From Candidatus Collinsella stercoripullorum (lineage in GTDB: Bacteria > Actinomycetota > Coriobacteriia > Coriobacteriales > Coriobacteriaceae), in assembly GCA_019117005.1 (NCBI GenBank), contig DXAO01000014.1, positions 62,001 through 126,000 of the forward strand: DNA of 64,000 nucleotides. The letters are read 5' to 3'. Numbering within the stretch: position 1 is the first letter of the stretch; each line of letters begins with the position of its first letter. Below are positions 1,201 through 31,274 of this stretch, one piece after another. The notes under the pieces were generated by a model that was not told the origin of the DNA, did not search any database, and worked only from the letters and a program-made list of their open reading frames with translations. Both the position numbers and the translations under genes were made by a program.

Positions 1201-1571
1201 GTGAACCCCTTCTAGCCGCATGGGTGCGCATCGGGCGGGTGGGCGGCTGCGCCCCGTCGATGCGAGGGGTCGGTCGCCGGCCGCCGGCGCGGTCGATTCG
1301 AATGGGTTTATCCTACCCGCTCGAGCGTGCGCAAGTCATATTTCCTTGTCCGGGCGGGGTGTTTGTCGAAGGGCGGGGCTGTGGCGGAGCCGCGGCGGCG
1401 CGTCGCCTGCGCGCCCCGGGAAGGCACCCGCCTGCCCCGGGAACGCCTAGATTGGCTGATACGGCCTGTTTTGTGCTCTCCCGGGGCAGGTGCCCCGCTT
1501 CCCGGGGCACGACCGCAGCCTCCCAGGACAGGCGCCCCATACGAAAACGGGGCCGCACGGCTCCGCCCTCT
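1201..1571. other. intergenic region with GC-rich palindrome
   Basis: No convincing gene. It holds the promoter region of the ABC transporter and the large inverted repeat at 1413-1508. Short open frames here have no ribosome binding site and no recognisable motif. Confidence 0.5.
1413..1508. repeat. imperfect 30-bp inverted repeat (CCCGGG-rich)
   Basis: Arms at 1413-1442 and 1479-1508 read gccccgggaag ... cctgccccggga and pair except for a few central bases; the loop is 36 nt. A related CCGGG-rich palindrome lies beyond the other end of the neighbouring transposase-like gene (2158-2178), so these may be ends or satellite copies of a mobile element. It has no T-run and is not an obvious terminator. 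Confidence 0.6.
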
Positions 1572-2087
1572 TTATGCCACGGCGCTGGCGCGCCAGCGAT
1601 AGTACCCGCTCAAAGAGACGCCGAGCGCCTCGCAGGCGACGCTGACGACCAGGTCGGGGTCCTTCTGCCGAAGCTCCTCGATCAGCTCGAAGCGCCGCGT
1701 CTTGCGCACGCCGCCCCGGTCGAGGGCCCCGCTCAGGGCGACGACGCCCCGAAGCACCTCGATCTCGCTGGTGAGCACCCTGATCTGCTGATGCAGGTCG
1801 CGCTGCTCGGCCGCGGTGACGGCCGCGCGCTCCTGGGCGCCCTCGCCGTCCGTCCGCGCCTGGCTCCAGCGCGAGATCGCCCCTTCGATGCGCTTGCGAC
1901 CCAGCACCTGCGGGTCGAGCCCGGCGGAGCGGAAGATCTCCGTGGGAGACTCCCTTGCGTAGTACCGGCGCATGCACTCGTTCCTGAACGAGCGGGCGTA
2001 CTTGATCGTATCGCCCTCGATCGACGCGACCGCTGGCAACGACAGCAGGTACGCGCGTTCCTCTTCCGTAAACGGACGTCTGGCCAT
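1572..2087 (-). CDS. HTH-domain protein, IS3-type OrfA-like (transposase N-terminal part, integrase core missing)
   Basis: The protein has 171 aa. The N-terminal half (MARRPFTEEERAYLLSLP and following) looks like a helix-turn-helix segment, followed by a coiled coil (about 80-120). The C-terminus VACEALGVSLSGYYRWRA matches the residues that normally precede the DDE integrase core in IS3-family OrfB, but a stop follows at once and no core is found in any frame downstream. The ATG at 2087 follows GGGGGAGGGATCG, a strong ribosome binding site. It is most likely a truncated or standalone remnant of an IS3-like element; a programmed frameshift product is less likely because no orfB follows. Flanking CCGGG palindromes support a mobile origin. 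Confidence 0.65.
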   Translation of the reverse strand: MARRPFTEEERAYLLSLPAVASIEGDTIKYARSFRNECMRRYYARESPTEIFRSAGLDPQVLGRKRIEGAISRWSQARTDGEGAQERAAVTAAEQRDLHQQIRVLTSEIEVLRGVVALSGALDRGGVRKTRRFELIEELRQKDPDLVVSVACEALGVSLSGYYRWRASAVA

Positions 2088-2157
2088 CGATCCCTCCCCC
2101 TGAGATTCCGGCCGTTTCCGCATCCCCGATCGAACTGCCTGGGACCGTCTGTCCCGG

Positions 2158-2178
2158 CGCGGGCTCCCCTAGCCCGCG
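2158..2178. repeat. short palindrome CGCGGGCT/AGCCCGCG
   Basis: Perfect 8-bp arms around a 5-nt loop, in the gap between the HTH/transposase-like gene and the terminator of the giant adhesin. Confidence 0.5.
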
Positions 2179-2216
2179 AAGCATCGTCCTTCCCGGGGAC
2201 CCGATGCCTTGATATG

Positions 2217-2254
2217 AAAGACGGTCGGGGCACCGCGCTCCGCGATGCCCCGGC
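2217..2254 (-). terminator. probable rho-independent terminator of the giant adhesin gene
   Basis: On the minus strand, shortly after the adhesin stop, GGGGCATCGCG pairs with CGCGGTGCCCC (one G-U) around a 3-nt loop. It is followed by CCGTCTTTC, a weak T-run. Confidence 0.55.
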
Positions 2255-2273
2255 CGCTTACGTCACATCCGCG

Positions 2274-5200
2274 TTAGCGGTTGGTGCGACGGCGCAGGAC
2301 CACACCGCCGGCCACGAGGGCCATGGCGGCCAGGCCGAGGCCGATGACCGCGACATTGGACATGTCGCCGGTCTGCGGCATGGCGTCGGTCGGCTCCTCG
2401 GGAGTCGGCTCGGCGGGCTTCACATAGGTGTTGGTGAAGCTCGGGAGCTTGCCGTCGTTGCCGTAGCTGACGGAGGCCGACGTCGAACCGTCGCCGTTAT
2501 CCGTGACCGTGACCGTGGCGGTATACACCGTCTCGTCGTAGGTCACGTTGTCCTTCTGGATGCCGTCGGTCGACTGGTCGTCGTCCTCAGGCAGCTTCTC
2601 GGACACCGTGTAGGTGTACTCTCCGGCCTCGGCGTACATCACCGGGTCATCGAAGACAACCGAACCGTCGGCGGCGTTGGTCGCGGTCTGCAGAACGTTG
2701 CCGTCCGCATCCTTGAGCTCGAAGGTGAACTCACCGTCAGCGAGCTCGCGACCGTCAAGCTTCTTGCTGGCGCCGAAGACGATGGAGCCGGGGTTGACGA
2801 TCTCGTAACCGTTCTCGAAGGTGATGCTCTCCACCTCGTTGCCATCGGCATCGGTGATCTTCCATGCGACGGACAGGGTGCCGTCCTGGTTGTCGGTGAC
2901 CGTAGCCAGAGCGTTGTACACGCTGCCATCGTAGGTGACACCGCCCAGGCCACCGTTGACCTCGGTGATCACGAACAGGTACTCACCGGGCTGGGTGAAG
3001 GTGACCTCCGGGAAGTTCACGCTGCCGTCGGCGGCATTGCTCGCGGTGAAGACGATGCCCTTCGGATCGGCGACACCGGGAGCGCTGGCACCGCGCAGCA
3101 TGAAGGTGAATTCGCCCTCATTGAGGCTGCGACCGGTGAGCGACTTCTTGATCGAGACGCCACCGTGGGTCGGATCGGTCGGAGTCGACGGGACCGGATC
3201 GGTGCCGTAGGTGTTGGTGAAGGTGAAGTCGCCGGCGACCGCGCCCTCATCGGAGGTCTTGGCGACAGAGATCGTTCCGTCGCCGTTGTCGGTCACGGTA
3301 ACCGTAACGGTCTTGGTGCCGGTGTCGTTGGTGATGCCGGCATAGGTGCCGGATTCGGTAACGGTGTAGGTGAAGGTCTTCTGGCGCTGAGCGCTCTGAG
3401 CATCGACGCCCTCGGTGTCATCGGTGGACTCGCCGCCGAAGACGTTCTCCATCGTGTACACGATGGTTCCGAAGCTGACGTTGCCCTGGGCATCGTTCTT
3501 GACGCTGGCGGCTTCGGGCATCGGAGCGCCCTCGGACCCGGTCAGCGTGAAGGTGAACGCGCCCTCGATATCGGCGAGGCTCGGCCCCTCAAGCGTGTTG
3601 TCATCAAGAGCGATGACCTTGTTACCGCTGAGCGCGACCTCCGCCTTGGCGTCCGCACCGTAGGTGTTGGTGAACGCGAGCGCGGCGTCGTCATTGACCG
3701 TGGCGGTCAGGCTGCCCTTGCCGTCGTCGACCACGTTGACGGTGACCTGGAAGCTGTCGTTCACCGCGGTGACGCCCTTATCGTTCTGAGCGGTGTCCTC
3801 GGAGACGGTGTAGGCAAACTCGTAGGTGACGGTGCCGTCATCGTTGCGATGGATCTGGGCGATACCGTTCGCGACAGCCTCGTTCAGCGATTGGGTGGTG
3901 TACTCGATCGGGCTGAACGTCACCATACCGGCCTGACCGTCGGCAGCCGCGCCGTTGGAACCCGTGGCGACCTCGTTGCCCTTGACATCGGTCACGATGA
4001 AGTCGAACTCATCCGCAACCATGTCGCGACCGGTCAGGGTCTTGGTGGCATCGAAGCGCACATCGCTCTCGCCGCCGACCGTGGTCGAACCGGCGTCATA
4101 GGAGTTGTTGAAGGTCAGGGTGACAGGCTGGACGTCGAGGGTCTGCGCAGCGGAGGCCGTGTAGGTCGCGACGAGCAGGCCGTCGACACGCGTCTCCACG
4201 GTCAGCGTACCGGATCCGCTGTCGGACACGGAGATGACAACGTTGTAAACGTGATCGTCGTTCTTGTAGCCCTCGGCACCGCCCTTGGTCTCAGCAACCG
4301 TGAACTCGAAGTCCTTACCGGCGTCGTCCTTGGTGAAGGTCATGTCGGTGACAACCGGGAGCGTCTCAGTCGCGGTGTTGCCGACGAGCTGTGCGGCGGA
4401 GGACTGAACCACCTTCGCGTCGCCGAGCTTCTCCAGAGCGTTCTCGTTCTCCGGGTCGACCGTGAACTCGAACTGGCCGGCAGCGATGTCATGACCCGTC
4501 AGGTTCTTCTGGATCTGCAGGCCGCCGAGCGCGTCGTAGTTGACCTCACCGGAGTTGTAGATGTTGGTGAAGACGCCGTTCTCGATGTTCGTGACGGCAG
4601 CGGTGAGACCGCCGTGCAGGTTGTCGGAAACCTGAACGGTAACCTCTGCGGTATGGGAGTCATAGGTGATACCGGCGTTGTCACCGGTGACCTCCGTCAC
4701 CGTGTAGGTGTAGACACCGATCTGGTCATAGGTAATCGTGCCGAATCCGAAGTCCGCGAAATCGTTGCCGTTCTCATCGGTATCGGTCTTGGCGTCCACG
4801 GTGACCTGGGTCTCCGCGGGCATGTACTTCGAAGAGGCCTCATCGGCGGCAGCGATCTCGAAGGTGAACGCATCGCCGTCCCAGGCCTTCCCCTGGAGCA
4901 CCTTCCTCAGCTGGATGCTGCCCTGCCCCTCATCGGGAAGATCGGTGGAACCGCTGGGCTCATAGGTGTTGGTGAAGTTGAGGGCCTCGGAAGAGTTGCC
5001 ATCCTGATCGTCGATCGAGGTGATCTCAGCGTTCAGGACACCCTCGCCGGCATCGGTGACCTCGACGTTCACGGTGTAGACCGTCGTATCGTAGGTCACG
5101 CCTTCGGTATCGGTATCAGCAGCGGGCTGCACCTCGGACACGGTGAAGGTGTACGTGCCCGGAAGGGTGAAGGTGATGTTCCCGAACGAGTCGCTGTAGG

Positions 5201-8200
5201 CGGCGTTCTGGTCCTCAGCGTTCTCATCATACGCGATGACCAAGCCGCTGGCGTTCTCCGGCAGCGTCACGCCGCCCGGGTTGTTCTCGCTCTGCTCGAG
5301 CTTGAAGGTGAAGGAATCACCCTCCTGCCAAGCGCGGCCATCGATTTCCTTGGAAACCGTGAGGTCCTTGACGCCCTCGGCGTCGCCGGGCAGGTCGCCC
5401 GTGGCCTTGTAGCTGTTGACGATCGTCGGGTTGTTTCCGTTCGTCTCGTCGAACGCGGCATCAAGCTGCCCGTCATTGCCGTCATCGGTCACATGGATCG
5501 TGATGGTCTTCGGGCTGTTGTCGTACGTCCAGCTGGTGTTCTCCGGCGCCTGGGTGGTCTCGGTCACCGTGAAGGTGTAGTCACCCACGGCGGTGAAGGT
5601 CAGGTCACCGAAATCGACGGTCTCGGAGTCCTCCTTACCGGTCAGGCCGGTGGTGGACTTGGTGATGGAGTTGTTCTCACCGAGACCCTGGACGTTCCCG
5701 GCGTTATCAGACGTGAGCTGGAGGGTGAAGTCGAACTCGGAGACCGCGGCAGCACCGGTGACATCCTTGGTCACCTGCAGATCGGCCTCATCATCACCGA
5801 CGGTCACGCCGTTCGGGACGTACGCGTTGGTGAACAGCGGGTCGTTGCCGTCCGCGCTCGCGACAAGGGCTCCCTCGTTGTTATCGGTGACCGTCACGAC
5901 GATCTGGCGAGTGTTGTCGTCGTAGGTCCAGCCGGAGGCCGTCGTCGTGTTGTCCTCGCTCACATCGAAGACATAGGTACCGGGCTCCTTGAAGGTGACT
6001 GTACCGAAATCAGCGGCCTTGGTGTCGCCGGCAGCGAAGTCCTCGGAGATGGTGGCGGTCAGCTTGCCGTCAACCAAGCCCACAACATCAGTTGCAGCAC
6101 CCTCGGAATCATCTGCGTTGAAGGCGGCTATGAAGGTGAAGTCCTCGCTGTTGGGAGCGCCCGTCACGGTCTTCTGCACGCCGATGCCGGACTCGGCATC
6201 CTTCACAAGCGTCGCCGGGGTGTACGTGTACGTGTTCACGAACGCAGCGGTGGGATAGGTCGCAGCGTCACCGCGGTCAAAATCAGCGCTCTTGTACTCA
6301 GTCGAGCTATCGCCCTTGGTCACCGTGGTGACCGTGCTCAGCGTACCGTCGCCATCATCGGAGACCGCGATCTCGACAGTCACCGGCTGCGCGTCATAGG
6401 TGTAGCCCTTGGCGCCGCCATTGACCTCGCTCACGACGAAGCTGAAGGTCTGACCGGCGTCATCCTGGTCGAAGGTCAGGCCGGCGATGCCGCGCCACAG
6501 GGCGGCAACACCGTTTGCAGCACCGTAGCGGTTGGCGAGCGTCGTGGTGGCCTCAGCAAGTTTGTCGGCAGAAGCCGTGTCACCATCAGGCGCGGTCACG
6601 GTGAAGTTGAACTGGTTCGCCTCAAGCGCATGACCGTTCAGCGTCTTGCTGAAGATGACGCCACCGGCCTCGTTGTCGTAGTTCATCGAGGCTGCGTAGC
6701 GGTTCACAAAGGTTGCGGAGCCGGAGGTGGTAACCGGGTCAGCGATGACCAGCTGGCCGTTCTCGTCGGTCACTTCGAAAGCAACCTGATAGGTGTGTCC
6801 GTCATACGTCCACGCACCGTTGGGAGCGTCCTGGGTCTCCGTCACGTTGAAGGTGTAGGTACCCGGGCGCGTGAAGGTCAGGTTGTCGAAGAGGATATTC
6901 GCAGAGCCGTCCTTGGCGATGGCGGGCGAGGTCATCACGTTGCCGTCCGCGTCGATGCCCGTCACCGAGCCGTTCGCGATGGCATCCCGCGTCTCGTTGT
7001 TGGCGGCAACCATCGTGAACTCGAACTGGCCCTCGGCACCGGCTGCGCCATCGAGCTGCTTGGTGATCTGCAGGCCGTCGGCCGCACCCTCGGTGGTGAC
7101 AGAGGAGGCGCGATAGCTGTTGGTGAACACGAAGTCGTTCCCGTTTACCGTAGCGACAACGCTACCGGTGCTCTGGTCCTGCGTCACGGCGATGCTCACG
7201 GTCTTGACCGTGTTGTCATACGTCATGCCGTTCAGCGTAGAGGTACCGTTACCGTTGTCGGCGGCACCCGCGGGGATAACCTCGCGAATCGCATACTCGT
7301 AGGTGTTGCCGATGTCATCGATGCCGAACTGGATGTCGGCAAAGGTGATCCCACCCGTACCGTTGTTGCCAACCTGAGTCTGCGCGGGCATGGGGGCACC
7401 CTGGGTCACGGCCGCGATAGTGAAGCGGAAGTCGTTGATATCGAGCGTGGTACCGGAGGTGTAATCCGTGAACGACTTGGTGCCGGTGATGTTGGCAGTA
7501 GCCACATCGTCGCCCAGGAAGTTGTTAGTGAAGACGGCATTACGGTCGTCAATAGAGGGCCACAGGGCCTCATCCTGACCAGTAGAAGTGGAGTCATCGT
7601 TGAAGGTGCGGTACATCGACTCGATGGAAGCGGCCAGGTTGCCTTCACCGTTATCGGTCACATTAACAGTCACGCGATAGATGGCGCCGGAGTAGGTAAG
7701 ACCGGACTCGGCCCCCTCGGTCTCCCGAATGAGATACACGTACTTCCCCACAGAGGAGTACTTGATCTCGCCGAAGCTGAACGTGACTTCCTCATTCTCC
7801 GTGTAGTTGGTCTGGTCGGTGTTGGTCAGCGTCACGGACGCATCACGGGGCATCGGCGCGTTCGGTGTGACATCGCTCAGCGTGAAGGTGAAGCTCTCGC
7901 CATCCTTCCAGTCGCGGCCCGTCAGCACCTTGGTGCCGTGGAGGCTGCCACCGGAGAGGGTCGTCTTGGCCACGTTGTAGGTGTTGGTGTATGCGACCTC
8001 GATCATGTCACTGGAAGCGATAGTGCCGATGGCGATCCGGCCATCAGCGCTGGCAGCACCGTTAACCGTGTTGGCGGCGGTGTAGCCGGCCTCGGCTTTC
8101 TCGGTCACCGTGAAGTTGGTGTCGGAGGGCAGGCCCTTGACAACCACGCGCTCACCGTTCTTGAGCGTGAGGGTACCGCCATCGGCGATCTGGCCGGTAG

Positions 8201-10643
8201 CAGCGGGCTCGGCGCCTTCGGTCACCTGCTGCGGATTACCGTCCACATCGACCGGCTGGTCCTGGGTGTTGTACTTGATGTAGTCGAAGCTACCCTGAAT
8301 GTCCGCAGCGCCGCCGTTGTTCGCGTTACCGAGGTCGACAGTGTAGGTGAACTCCTTGTCGTTGTGCACGGCGCCCGTGGTACCCCAGTCGACCGTCTTG
8401 GAGATCTGCAGGTCGCCGGAAACCGGGTAGGCGATCTTGCCGTTGTTACCGAGGGTCACCACAACCTGCTCGCCGTTCCAGGCAGGGCTGATGGAATCGG
8501 TTGCAGTCTCAGTTGTATTCGGATCCTTAGCCGCCTTAAACTCGGTGGCACGGGTCAGACGAGGAGAGCCACCCTCAATGTAGAAAGTACCATCATCGGC
8601 CCTGTGAACATAGTTTCCGAGCTGGCCGTCTTCAGCGACAAACGAAACCCATTCATTTTGGACACTCTCGTTTGCATAGTACGTACGCTGATAATAATAC
8701 GTGCTGTCAGGACGATATTCTCCATCTCTAACCGGATCCTGAACATCCGCGCTGTTGTAAATAGGCGTATCAACCGTGAAGTAATAGAAACTGTTGGTGT
8801 CAGCGGGAACGAAGGTCGCCGTCGTGGTGCCGACACCATCTCCGTTGTAGTTATTCGAGTAGAAATAGACGTTGCCAGTCTCCACATCGGTATGAGACTC
8901 GATATAGCCACCATCAATCTGCGATGCATCGAGGTTGCCCTTAGCATCGACAAGGCCGTCCTTGAGACCGACGGTGTAGTACACGCGAATCGGGTATGCC
9001 GGGAGCACCTCTGTCGTCGTGGTGGTCTCGCCGTCAACGGTGTTGGACTCAGCGGTATAGAGACGCATGGGGAGCATGGTGGAGGGAATCTGCACCTCTA
9101 CCGTATCGCCCTGCTGCGCGGCAACCCCATGGGTGACGGTAATCTCGATGTCGCTCAGATTGTGGCTGCCGGGATAGACAACCCCTTCATCATTGCCGTT
9201 GTCAACAGACCCCTGGAACACATAGGTCGTGGTAGATCCATCATCAGAAGTGTTAGCGGAAACCTGAGTGAATTCCTCGCCGGCGAACACGATGCTCTTG
9301 AAATTCTTGACCTCGGTGTAGTCGCCGAGCGTGTCGGTGAAGGTCAGGTAGCCAACGGGCTCCCCGCCGATGCTGTCATTCGACTCAATCGGCGACGTTG
9401 CACTGGAACCGAAATCATCGTAGATGGACTGGAACACGTCGTTCAGCTCATCAGCGTTATCCGCGGCAAAGTAGTAGTTACCCTCGGCCCTATCACCAAG
9501 CGTACAGTTCTCCGAAAAGTCAACCCGGTTGCTGTTCGTATTTCTCGAAGACGCGCTTGGGTAGTTGCTCGACACCGCATTCATGAAGTAGTTGGCATCG
9601 TGCGCCTGAGTTCCCTCACCACTCAAGTCACTCGGGTCTGCACCCTGGAAGACACCAACCGAGTAGATGCTAACCCCGGTCGTCTTCATCTCCCGGGCAA
9701 TGTTGACAGACTGACCAGCGTTGTCGTTTTCAACGAAATCGCCGTCACCGGGCATACCGTCGGTAAAGAAGACGACGACTTTCTTGGCCTCAGTCCGCGC
9801 ACCGTCACCCATGCCGTTGATTCCGTTGATGATGTTCTGTGCTTCCCTGAAGCCCGTCTCGGACTCAGTGCCGCCACTATAGGACAGACCGGTAACATAG
9901 CCCTTCAGACCGTTGGCGTTGCTGCCCTCGGTGCAGTTGACGAAGTACTGAGGAACCTCCCACCACCGACTAGCATTGTAGGCGTCCGCGTTGTCTGAGT
10001 ACGAAACGATGGAGACGCGATGCTGCTGCTCAGCGTTCTTCCCGGCATTCTCCTCGGCCACCGTATCGATGAAATTGGAGACCGCACTCTCCATAGCCTG
10101 ATCGATGCGCACGCTCGTCTGAGTACGCGTATAGAACTGGATGTGAGAGGTATCGCCATCGTCTGCGCTCGTCTTGGGAAACACCTGGATACCGTTCAGA
10201 TACCAGCCATCGAAATTAGCATCAAAAATGCCGGAGCGACGCTCTTCAATCTCCGCATAGCTGCCGTCTTCGTTGAGGGCATAGTACTGGGTGTTGTCAC
10301 CCCAGCCCTCATTCGGATCGTAAGCTTCATGATACTCGTAGCTTGTCAATCTCCCCTGAGTCATCGAGCCAGAGCGGTCGAGCACAAGGACGATGTCAAG
10401 CGGCTGGTTGATGGTCGTCTGACCGGAGATGTTGGCCGCGGAGGAAAGCGCAGAGAGACCGACAAGGGCAGTCCCCTCGTCATTCTTAATCTCAAAGGTC
10501 GTCTCCCCACTCTGGCTGGTCAGTTGCACATCACTCGTGTAGACCGACTTGTCCGTCCAGATACGACCGGTGTTCCGGGTGGAGTCTCCGGCATTGTCGC
10601 CGGATGAAACGCCGTTCTCACCGCTATACCAGTCGTCGTGCAT
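2274..10643 (-). CDS. giant sortase-anchored adhesin: vWA domain plus about 13 FctA/Spy0128-like repeats
   Basis: The continuous open frame encodes 2789 aa. Residues about 80-430 form a von Willebrand A domain (DIVLVLDRSGSM MIDAS, then YSGGTESETG and VVFFTDGMPG). After a spacer come about 13 repeats of 110-160 aa, each opening with a K-x-L/V-x-G motif (for example KVLTGRDW, KSLTGRSL, KKLDGREL) and carrying Y-T/V-F-x-V-T/S-E and F-x-N-x-Y. This is the pattern of T-antigen/FctA pilin domains that form internal Lys-Asn isopeptide bonds. The C-terminus is a sorting signal: MPQTGD at about 2755, a hydrophobic stretch, then RRRTNR. The protein is expected to be cell-wall anchored and to bind host surfaces (family knowledge). 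The first in-frame ATG has no secretion signal. A good signal peptide lies upstream in another frame (10644-10893), separated by two poly-G tracts, so this copy is either phase-OFF or mis-sequenced. Confidence 0.9.
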   Translation of the reverse strand: MHDDWYSGENGVSSGDNAGDSTRNTGRIWTDKSVYTSDVQLTSQSGETTFEIKNDEGTALVGLSALSSAANISGQTTINQPLDIVLVLDRSGSMTQGRLTSYEYHEAYDPNEGWGDNTQYYALNEDGSYAEIEERRSGIFDANFDGWYLNGIQVFPKTSADDGDTSHIQFYTRTQTSVRIDQAMESAVSNFIDTVAEENAGKNAEQQHRVSIVSYSDNADAYNASRWWEVPQYFVNCTEGSNANGLKGYVTGLSYSGGTESETGFREAQNIINGINGMGDGARTEAKKVVVFFTDGMPGDGDFVENDNAGQSVNIAREMKTTGVSIYSVGVFQGADPSDLSGEGTQAHDANYFMNAVSSNYPSASSRNTNSNRVDFSENCTLGDRAEGNYYFAADNADELNDVFQSIYDDFGSSATSPIESNDSIGGEPVGYLTFTDTLGDYTEVKNFKSIVFAGEEFTQVSANTSDDGSTTTYVFQGSVDNGNDEGVVYPGSHNLSDIEITVTHGVAAQQGDTVEVQIPSTMLPMRLYTAESNTVDGETTTTTEVLPAYPIRVYYTVGLKDGLVDAKGNLDASQIDGGYIESHTDVETGNVYFYSNNYNGDGVGTTTATFVPADTNSFYYFTVDTPIYNSADVQDPVRDGEYRPDSTYYYQRTYYANESVQNEWVSFVAEDGQLGNYVHRADDGTFYIEGGSPRLTRATEFKAAKDPNTTETATDSISPAWNGEQVVVTLGNNGKIAYPVSGDLQISKTVDWGTTGAVHNDKEFTYTVDLGNANNGGAADIQGSFDYIKYNTQDQPVDVDGNPQQVTEGAEPAATGQIADGGTLTLKNGERVVVKGLPSDTNFTVTEKAEAGYTAANTVNGAASADGRIAIGTIASSDMIEVAYTNTYNVAKTTLSGGSLHGTKVLTGRDWKDGESFTFTLSDVTPNAPMPRDASVTLTNTDQTNYTENEEVTFSFGEIKYSSVGKYVYLIRETEGAESGLTYSGAIYRVTVNVTDNGEGNLAASIESMYRTFNDDSTSTGQDEALWPSIDDRNAVFTNNFLGDDVATANITGTKSFTDYTSGTTLDINDFRFTIAAVTQGAPMPAQTQVGNNGTGGITFADIQFGIDDIGNTYEYAIREVIPAGAADNGNGTSTLNGMTYDNTVKTVSIAVTQDQSTGSVVATVNGNDFVFTNSYRASSVTTEGAADGLQITKQLDGAAGAEGQFEFTMVAANNETRDAIANGSVTGIDADGNVMTSPAIAKDGSANILFDNLTFTRPGTYTFNVTETQDAPNGAWTYDGHTYQVAFEVTDENGQLVIADPVTTSGSATFVNRYAASMNYDNEAGGVIFSKTLNGHALEANQFNFTVTAPDGDTASADKLAEATTTLANRYGAANGVAALWRGIAGLTFDQDDAGQTFSFVVSEVNGGAKGYTYDAQPVTVEIAVSDDGDGTLSTVTTVTKGDSSTEYKSADFDRGDAATYPTAAFVNTYTYTPATLVKDAESGIGVQKTVTGAPNSEDFTFIAAFNADDSEGAATDVVGLVDGKLTATISEDFAAGDTKAADFGTVTFKEPGTYVFDVSEDNTTTASGWTYDDNTRQIVVTVTDNNEGALVASADGNDPLFTNAYVPNGVTVGDDEADLQVTKDVTGAAAVSEFDFTLQLTSDNAGNVQGLGENNSITKSTTGLTGKEDSETVDFGDLTFTAVGDYTFTVTETTQAPENTSWTYDNSPKTITIHVTDDGNDGQLDAAFDETNGNNPTIVNSYKATGDLPGDAEGVKDLTVSKEIDGRAWQEGDSFTFKLEQSENNPGGVTLPENASGLVIAYDENAEDQNAAYSDSFGNITFTLPGTYTFTVSEVQPAADTDTEGVTYDTTVYTVNVEVTDAGEGVLNAEITSIDDQDGNSSEALNFTNTYEPSGSTDLPDEGQGSIQLRKVLQGKAWDGDAFTFEIAAADEASSKYMPAETQVTVDAKTDTDENGNDFADFGFGTITYDQIGVYTYTVTEVTGDNAGITYDSHTAEVTVQVSDNLHGGLTAAVTNIENGVFTNIYNSGEVNYDALGGLQIQKNLTGHDIAAGQFEFTVDPENENALEKLGDAKVVQSSAAQLVGNTATETLPVVTDMTFTKDDAGKDFEFTVAETKGGAEGYKNDDHVYNVVISVSDSGSGTLTVETRVDGLLVATYTASAAQTLDVQPVTLTFNNSYDAGSTTVGGESDVRFDATKTLTGRDMVADEFDFIVTDVKGNEVATGSNGAAADGQAGMVTFSPIEYTTQSLNEAVANGIAQIHRNDDGTVTYEFAYTVSEDTAQNDKGVTAVNDSFQVTVNVVDDGKGSLTATVNDDAALAFTNTYGADAKAEVALSGNKVIALDDNTLEGPSLADIEGAFTFTLTGSEGAPMPEAASVKNDAQGNVSFGTIVYTMENVFGGESTDDTEGVDAQSAQRQKTFTYTVTESGTYAGITNDTGTKTVTVTVTDNGDGTISVAKTSDEGAVAGDFTFTNTYGTDPVPSTPTDPTHGGVSIKKSLTGRSLNEGEFTFMLRGASAPGVADPKGIVFTASNAADGSVNFPEVTFTQPGEYLFVITEVNGGLGGVTYDGSVYNALATVTDNQDGTLSVAWKITDADGNEVESITFENGYEIVNPGSIVFGASKKLDGRELADGEFTFELKDADGNVLQTATNAADGSVVFDDPVMYAEAGEYTYTVSEKLPEDDDQSTDGIQKDNVTYDETVYTATVTVTDNGDGSTSASVSYGNDGKLPSFTNTYVKPAEPTPEEPTDAMPQTGDMSNVAVIGLGLAAMALVAGGVVLRRRTNR

Positions 10644-10664: not shown

Positions 10665-10672
10665 CCCCCCCC
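10665..10672 (-). repeat. poly-G (8) tract in the adhesin coding sequence, out of frame
   Basis: Eight C on the plus strand. It lies just after the signal peptide (ETLAE). Nine or six G would restore the frame to the adhesin body. Confidence 0.85.
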
Positions 10673-10831
10673 TTCGGCAAGGGTCTCCACGCCGAACGCG
10701 GCGTGCACGCCGTCCACGATCCCCTGCGCGAAGCCAGGAATCGCGACGACCATCGCCAGCGCCACGACGAGCGCGAGCAGACCGGCGCGAAGCTTACGCG
10801 CCTTCTTCGGGGTTACTCCGTTTTGGAGCGA

Positions 10832-10840
10832 CCCCCCCCC
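10832..10840 (-). repeat. poly-G (9) tract near the adhesin start, out of frame
   Basis: Nine C on the plus strand, 17 codons after the start. Ten or seven G would open the frame into the signal peptide; with nine, translation ends about 10 codons later. Confidence 0.85.
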
Positions 10841-10893
10841 GTGAGCTTTTTACGGGAAGTGCCCACGTCGGGGCGTTTCCTTGGCACTTGCAT

Positions 10894-11456
10894 CGTTACC
10901 TTTTCTCCTCTTCTCGCAACGTTTCAGCTACGTTTCCCCACCCACCAGAGTTCTCTCTCATGCCAGCCGAGAAGTCGTCGCCCGATCCCGAACGTCAACC
11001 TTCAACATGAGGTAGAACTCTGAACAGCGAGAGTCGCGTTAATTCTAGCTATAAGACCCCCGGTGGGTTTTTCGCTATATTCAGCCTTCTATCTGCATTT
11101 TTCTGTATCAGGGGGGACTGATTCCACATCTAATGACCCACTGGGTACGTGCACCGGATTTCCGCAGGAATCCCCTATCGCTTATCGCCCGACACTTTTC
11201 CTCGATAGAAGGACCCCCTATGATCATATAGTTATGGTGATTATATGGAGACAGGCGAACGGTTTTCTTAACTTTCAATCTATGCGGTCAAAACGGCCAA
11301 CTTGCGCCGCATCGACGGGTCTCCAAGATGACGCCGTCCCCTCAGGGGGACACCGCCAGATCGAGCGGCGCTCAAGCTGATTGGCAGGGCGGCCCCTCAT
11401 GCCTCCTCCTCGAGCGCCGGCTATACTGGATGCCACCCGAACCTTCAAGGAGACCC
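10894..11456. other. intergenic region between the divergent adhesin and rlmD genes
   Basis: About 560 bp, more AT-rich than its surroundings, with no supported gene. It must hold the promoters of both divergent genes. TATACT at 11422-11427 is a candidate -10 for rlmD, without a good -35. A small hairpin with a T-run (GACCCCCGGTGGGTTTTT, about 11047-11064) could be a weak terminator on the plus strand. Confidence 0.5.
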
Positions 11457-30969: not shown

Positions 30970-31274
30970 CCTGCGTACAGGCTGAGTGGGGGGGGGAGTA
31001 AGACGACGGTCATTCCGACCGATTCACACGAACCGCGCCGGGCCGCACCAGACCGCTCTGAACCGCACCGTCTACCGCGCCCCGTGAAGCCCTGAGGCCC
31101 TTATCGGTCGTAGCGACCTTCCGGCGCGTCGCGCAGCCGCCCCCTCATCTCAGGCGCGCGCCGCAAATGCGAAAGCGCTGCCATGCGAAAGCACCGCCAT
31201 GCGAAAGGCCCCGTCCCATACAGGACGGGGCCTTTTTCACAGCCCTTATGAATCGGAGCGCGCCCTGATGAGGT
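30970..31274. other. intergenic region between convergent DUF151 and gyrA genes
   Basis: No gene seen. It holds a run of nine G (30988-30996), three near-copies of a 16-bp unit starting ATGCGAAAG (about 31167-31210) and the terminator at 31207-31237. Confidence 0.6.
31207..31237 (+). terminator. rho-independent terminator between DUF151 and gyrA genes
   Basis: GGCCCCGTCC pairs perfectly with GGACGGGGCC and TTTTT follows on the plus strand. On the minus strand CCTTTCGC follows the stem, so it could also stop gyrA transcription. Confidence 0.85.

Follow-up and report, generated by a model that had tools for sequence, protein, structure and literature searches.

A conserved poly-G tract in the leader of a giant Collinsella wall adhesin gene is most likely a phase-variation switch, with a second tract as a possible further gate

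Why does the gene for a giant surface protein in Candidatus Collinsella stercoripullorum begin with two poly-G tracts, each of which leaves its reading frame broken? The locus lies on the minus strand of the window, the 64,000-nt stretch of DNA analyzed here, and a sequence-only reading had proposed that a G9 at 10832-10840 and a G8 at 10665-10672, both out of frame, together gate secretion of the protein. Both runs are exactly there (C9 and C8 on the plus strand), and translation of the assembled sequence shows both to be out of frame. On the minus strand, a Shine-Dalgarno-like sequence (GAGGAG, AAGG; 10899-10910) stands just upstream of a putative ATG start codon (10891-10893), followed by 17 codons, the G9 (tract 1), a signal peptide, the G8 (tract 2) and an ORF of 2789 aa (2274-10643) that has no signal peptide of its own. 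The leader signal peptide, KKARKLRAGLLALVVALAMVVAIPGFAQ (10724-10807), was read from the translation rather than called by a signal-peptide predictor, and the two tracts are separated by 159 nt.

With tract 1 at G9, the ATG frame closes at a TAA (10813-10815) after 26 residues. The signal-peptide frame is itself closed by a TAA just upstream of tract 1, and from there to the hydrophobic core it holds no start codon; we therefore rejected a start codon downstream of tract 1 as an alternative. This frame crosses tract 2 into the wrong frame and then meets a stop. We also ruled out the internal ATG at 10643 as the start, since no signal peptide follows it. The earlier proposal that one more G in each tract joins start codon, signal peptide and adhesin into one frame is correct, and it is one solution among several, because a single frame is restored at each tract by a length change of either +1 or -2.

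We counted 33 distinct runs of at least eight Gs in the 2.22-Mb genome, which by an arithmetic estimate predict only ~0.05 same-strand pairs within 200 bp genome-wide, so the pair in this leader is beyond chance. One further close pair of G8 tracts (C24, 174 bp apart) turned up genome-wide, and was ruled out as a second double-tract gene for want of a coding signature. Within ORFs of clear coding composition, we found 7 G or C runs of at least seven in 352 kb of this genome. Tracts 1 and 2 both lie inside the 5' coding part of their gene and are at least eight bases long, as expected of a phase-variable gene. Elsewhere in the window, another G9 tract (30988-30996, plus strand) has no long open frame on either side.

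From its domain content, the long ORF is predicted to encode an adhesin or pilin-like protein with sortase-type wall anchoring, and it is these domains that suggest the name adhesin. Pfam matches place a VWA domain at 9579-10085, and a DUF7601 domain followed by 13 FctA isopeptide pilin-type (Spy0128-like) domains at 2394-8417 (approximate limits). The chain ends with an MPQTG sortase-type anchor motif (2367-2381), a hydrophobic span and RRR. A comparison with the PDB gave a weak sequence match to streptococcal T-antigen pilins, and the nearest named homologue, from Collinsella sp. An2, is 69% identical in the VWA region. The two frameshifts in the assembled sequence could mark a decaying pseudogene, a reading we consider very improbable: the ORF runs for 2789 codons without a stop, dN/dS against the An2 gene is ~0.2 over 1710 aligned codons (a rough value, as dS is ~1.5 and near saturation), and both frameshifts fall exactly on G runs. 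The adhesin gene appears instead to be under purifying selection, with no visible decay, as far as this rough ratio can tell. It uses GGG for 20 of its 284 glycine codons, and its codon bias most likely accounts for a 2924-codon ORF antisense to it (1224-9998, plus strand).

The adhesin gene stands alone. Its neighbors are an RNA methyltransferase gene and, directly downstream, a gene for a transposase-related HTH protein (1572-2123, minus strand); there is no sortase or further pilin gene among the neighboring genes, and the only PF04203 match in the genome sits on contig 16. Viral contigs contained no relatives. Among the homologues, a protein recorded from Lachnoclostridium sp. An131 (L098), named as a Firmicute, is 70% identical to the window adhesin; its gene has 46% GC, lacks a tract and is saturated at synonymous sites, which suggests an old transfer between phyla. 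The Collinsella provencensis homologue (L114 / L012) carries an in-frame TAG between its signal peptide and VWA part.

We used the VWA region as a query blind to the tracts, and collected 80 homologous loci from species-representative genomes. On the gene strand, runs of at least nine Gs occurred 14 times in the 330 nt 5' of the VWA match (26 kb in total) versus 6 times in the other 664 kb, an enrichment of about 59-fold; the opposite strand of the 80 loci held one such run. Because the loci are related, this test overstates their independence, though the leaders are very diverged. In 13 of the 14 tract loci, all from Coriobacteriia, an SD-supported ATG (start codons in homologues were inferred and picked by Shine-Dalgarno context) is followed by 8-11 codons, a G9-G11 tract and a signal peptide. 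The tract-bearing genomes include Collinsella (An2, C. massiliensis, AK_207A and one uncultured Collinsella), Eggerthella sinensis, Gordonibacter An230, Rubneribacter badeniensis (two genes), and MAGs of Eggerthellaceae, Atopobiaceae and Coriobacteriaceae. The fourteenth locus, in Bifidobacterium italicum, has a G14 upstream of the probable start, and homologues in the C. aerofaciens group have no tract. In C. tanakaei and Olsenella profusa, the same Thr-Gly-Gly-Gly as in the tract leaders is encoded in frame with mixed codons, as ACG GGT GGA GGT and ACG GGG GGT GGG, respectively; with the tract broken and the leader in frame, the gene would be locked on.

The lengths of these tracts cross reading frames. 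The tract is in frame in 5 of the 13 homologues (L106, L108, L119, L129 and L131), one G too long in seven (L100, L105, L109, L118, L120, L161 and L149, the last ambiguous, as a second ATG would put its tract in frame), and one G too short in one (L097), which is also the state of tract 1 in the window. L129 and L161 have nearly identical leader DNA, with an in-frame G9 in the former and an out-of-frame G10 in the latter. Phase variation had been raised as a possibility for both window tracts, with a lack of variation among relatives named as what would speak against it. For tract 1 it is well supported, with a tract at the same place in many Coriobacteriia and frames crossed in both directions; tract 2 has no homologous tract in which variation could be seen. 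We also noted extra homopolymers near some of these leaders. Both Rubneribacter loci (L100 and L120) have an additional G10 ~430 nt before the VWA match, which follows a short ATG leader and lies upstream of the tract-bearing leader. L119, whose adhesin leader has an in-frame G10, has an intergenic C11 upstream of that leader, 465 nt before the VWA match, possibly a promoter-spacing tract.

A leader of the same design as that around tract 1 occurs elsewhere in this genome, where the leader of a secreted C69 peptidase contains a G9 (contig 6:78884-78892; L085:1884-1892). The closest three copies of that leader, from this genome, a C. tanakaei genome and genome G038, share 94% mean column identity; their sequence is nearly invariant except at the tract, which reads G9, G9A and G10A. 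All three frames are filled, making this a second likely phase-variable gene in the genome. As in the adhesin family, tract length here differs across frames between related genomes, and the C69 copies appear to be the clearest sign of tract length change on a short time scale in the genus. Given the recurrence of tract 1 in its family, its frame-crossing lengths and the same design in the C69 leader, tract 1 is most likely a slipped-strand phase-variation switch. To judge from the homologous leaders, the tract is an ancient feature of these adhesins in Coriobacteriia.

If both tracts were instead under-called by one in sequencing or assembly, the gene would simply be intact. This alternative, already raised by the sequence-only reading, draws on the fact that every coding tract of this assembly whose frame could be judged (tract 1, tract 2 and the C69 tract) is one G short. 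For the family, under-calling is not supported, because it predicts homologues one G short and the out-of-frame homologues, which come from independent projects, are mostly one too long. The same assembly also contains G10 tracts and an intact penicillin-binding protein gene with an internal C7, and even a miscalled tract 1 would still belong to a family of length-variable tracts. Error as the whole explanation therefore seems unlikely to us. Because the three tracts are uniformly short, and because deposited G-tract lengths are known to depart from those actually present (Penno et al, 2022; PMC9187656), the out/out state of both tracts in this strain is uncertain; that tract 1 can switch has much stronger support.

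By analogy, the mechanism and logic of such a switch are already known from the G-tracts of Bifidobacterium pili. In Bifidobacterium breve UCC2003, the sortase-dependent pilus genes bbr_0113 and bbr_1889 are switched ON and OFF by poly-G tracts; bbr_1889b encodes 2674 aa, and loss of downstream transcription by polarity has been argued (Penno et al, 2022; PMC9187656). Both systems belong to gut actinobacteria and combine a small 5' ORF with a giant ORF for an LPXTG-type protein that bears the anchor and lacks a signal peptide, with a G tract in between whose frame decides secretion. The window locus, known from sequence alone, differs in belonging to Coriobacteriia rather than Bifidobacterium, and in its tract layout, with the conserved tract preceding the signal peptide and a second one following it. 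Tract 2 is the one placed as in B. breve, between the secretion-signal ORF and the anchor-bearing ORF, whereas tract 1 splits the start codon from the signal peptide. The LPXTG-type anchor and pilin domains are present (MPQTG and 13 FctA matches), and a pilin cluster with a dedicated sortase is absent, judging from the neighboring genes and a genome-wide search for PF04203.

The homopolymer contingency loci of Neisseria, Campylobacter and Helicobacter likewise have a 5' G tract in a surface gene, with lengths that cross frames between genomes (PMC5084427, PMC6321876, PMC2823697). The locus described here differs from them in encoding a Gram-positive, sortase-anchored giant adhesin with two tracts in one leader, and its variation is seen between genomes. 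With FctA/Spy0128-type pilins and streptococcal T-antigens it shares domain content (the 13 FctA matches), whereas here a lone gene carries all domains in one 2789-aa chain together with a VWA domain.

The second tract has a different history. At its position, the An2 gene reads GAA ACG GGT GTC TGG, and the window reads GAA, then G8, then CAG TGG in the adhesin frame. No homologue examined has a run of at least seven Gs at this place; a Coriobacteriia MAG (L152) has a single, in-frame G8 inside its signal peptide. As relatives lack a counterpart, tract 2 is best read as a recent gain specific to this lineage. At eight Gs it is also short for a tract expected to slip fast.

These observations qualify the proposed two-lock switch, of which the tract 1 gate is well supported and the second lock, formed by a tract absent from the closest homologues, is only possible. 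We hold tentatively, at somewhat below an even chance, to the reading of an AND gate in which the G tracts on either side of the signal peptide act in series and slip independently. If it is true, display would need both tracts in frame, the ON fraction would be the product of two, and cells in which only tract 1 is in frame would secrete a short peptide that lacks the anchor. We give a similarly tentative place, also short of even, to the alternative that tract 1 is a real switch and tract 2 is no second lock, either because its true length is in frame and was miscalled or because it is a fortuitous G run with little slippage. The absence of tract 2 from the closest and all other homologues examined and its length of only G8 favor this alternative; the rarity of runs as long as tract 2 in coding sequence of this genome argues against it, as does B. 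breve bbr_1889, where the G tract that splits the two ORFs follows the signal peptide (PMC9187656).

The frames might also be joined at the RNA level. Slippage during transcription, or frameshifting by ribosomes, at the G runs would yield a low, constant amount of adhesin from unchanged DNA. Homopolymers of such length can promote slippage of RNA polymerase and ribosomes, and the purifying selection on the downstream gene is in keeping with such recoding. Here, however, each protein molecule would require two separate events, and the in-frame tracts and tract-free in-frame leaders among the homologues would be unneeded under programmed recoding. We regard recoding as improbable.

Overall, the wall-anchored VWA/pilin-like adhesin is probably encoded by a contingency gene in which slippage at tract 1 gates secretion and tract 2 forms a second gate if its G8 is real and slips. 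In this model, replication slippage would alter the length of tract 1, and one length class in three would join the ATG to the signal peptide. In the assembled state, translation would end after 26 residues and nothing would be displayed; the out-of-frame tract would yield only this peptide, and downstream transcription would probably be lost by polarity, as argued for B. breve. A slipping tract 2 would act as a second frame gate in series. With both tracts in frame the adhesin would be displayed, adhesion would be the switched trait, and the population would be mixed for a large surface protein.

In the literature searched, whose coverage left out most subscription journals, no paper turned up on phase variation through homopolymers in Collinsella or Coriobacteriia. 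What appears new is a pre-signal-peptide tract that recurs in Coriobacteriia adhesins, and the doubled tract. The former would carry poly-G switching of giant wall adhesins beyond Bifidobacterium, into Coriobacteriia of the gut (Collinsella, Eggerthella, Gordonibacter, Rubneribacter and Atopobiaceae); the latter, if real, would be a natural test of how serial tracts tune ON frequency. We predict that cultured strains will often be OFF for tract-bearing adhesins, and that annotations will mislead where they list a giant ORF lacking a signal peptide and, 5' of it, a small ORF.

Three other contigs of this genome (40, 32 and 4) carry a G8 at or near a presumed ribosome site or N-terminus (L070:5011, L092:4955 and L094:4993, respectively). 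The genes at these sites resemble an acyltransferase, a polysaccharide pyruvyl transferase and a bacterial sugar transferase, and the tracts are possible further switches of surface polysaccharide.
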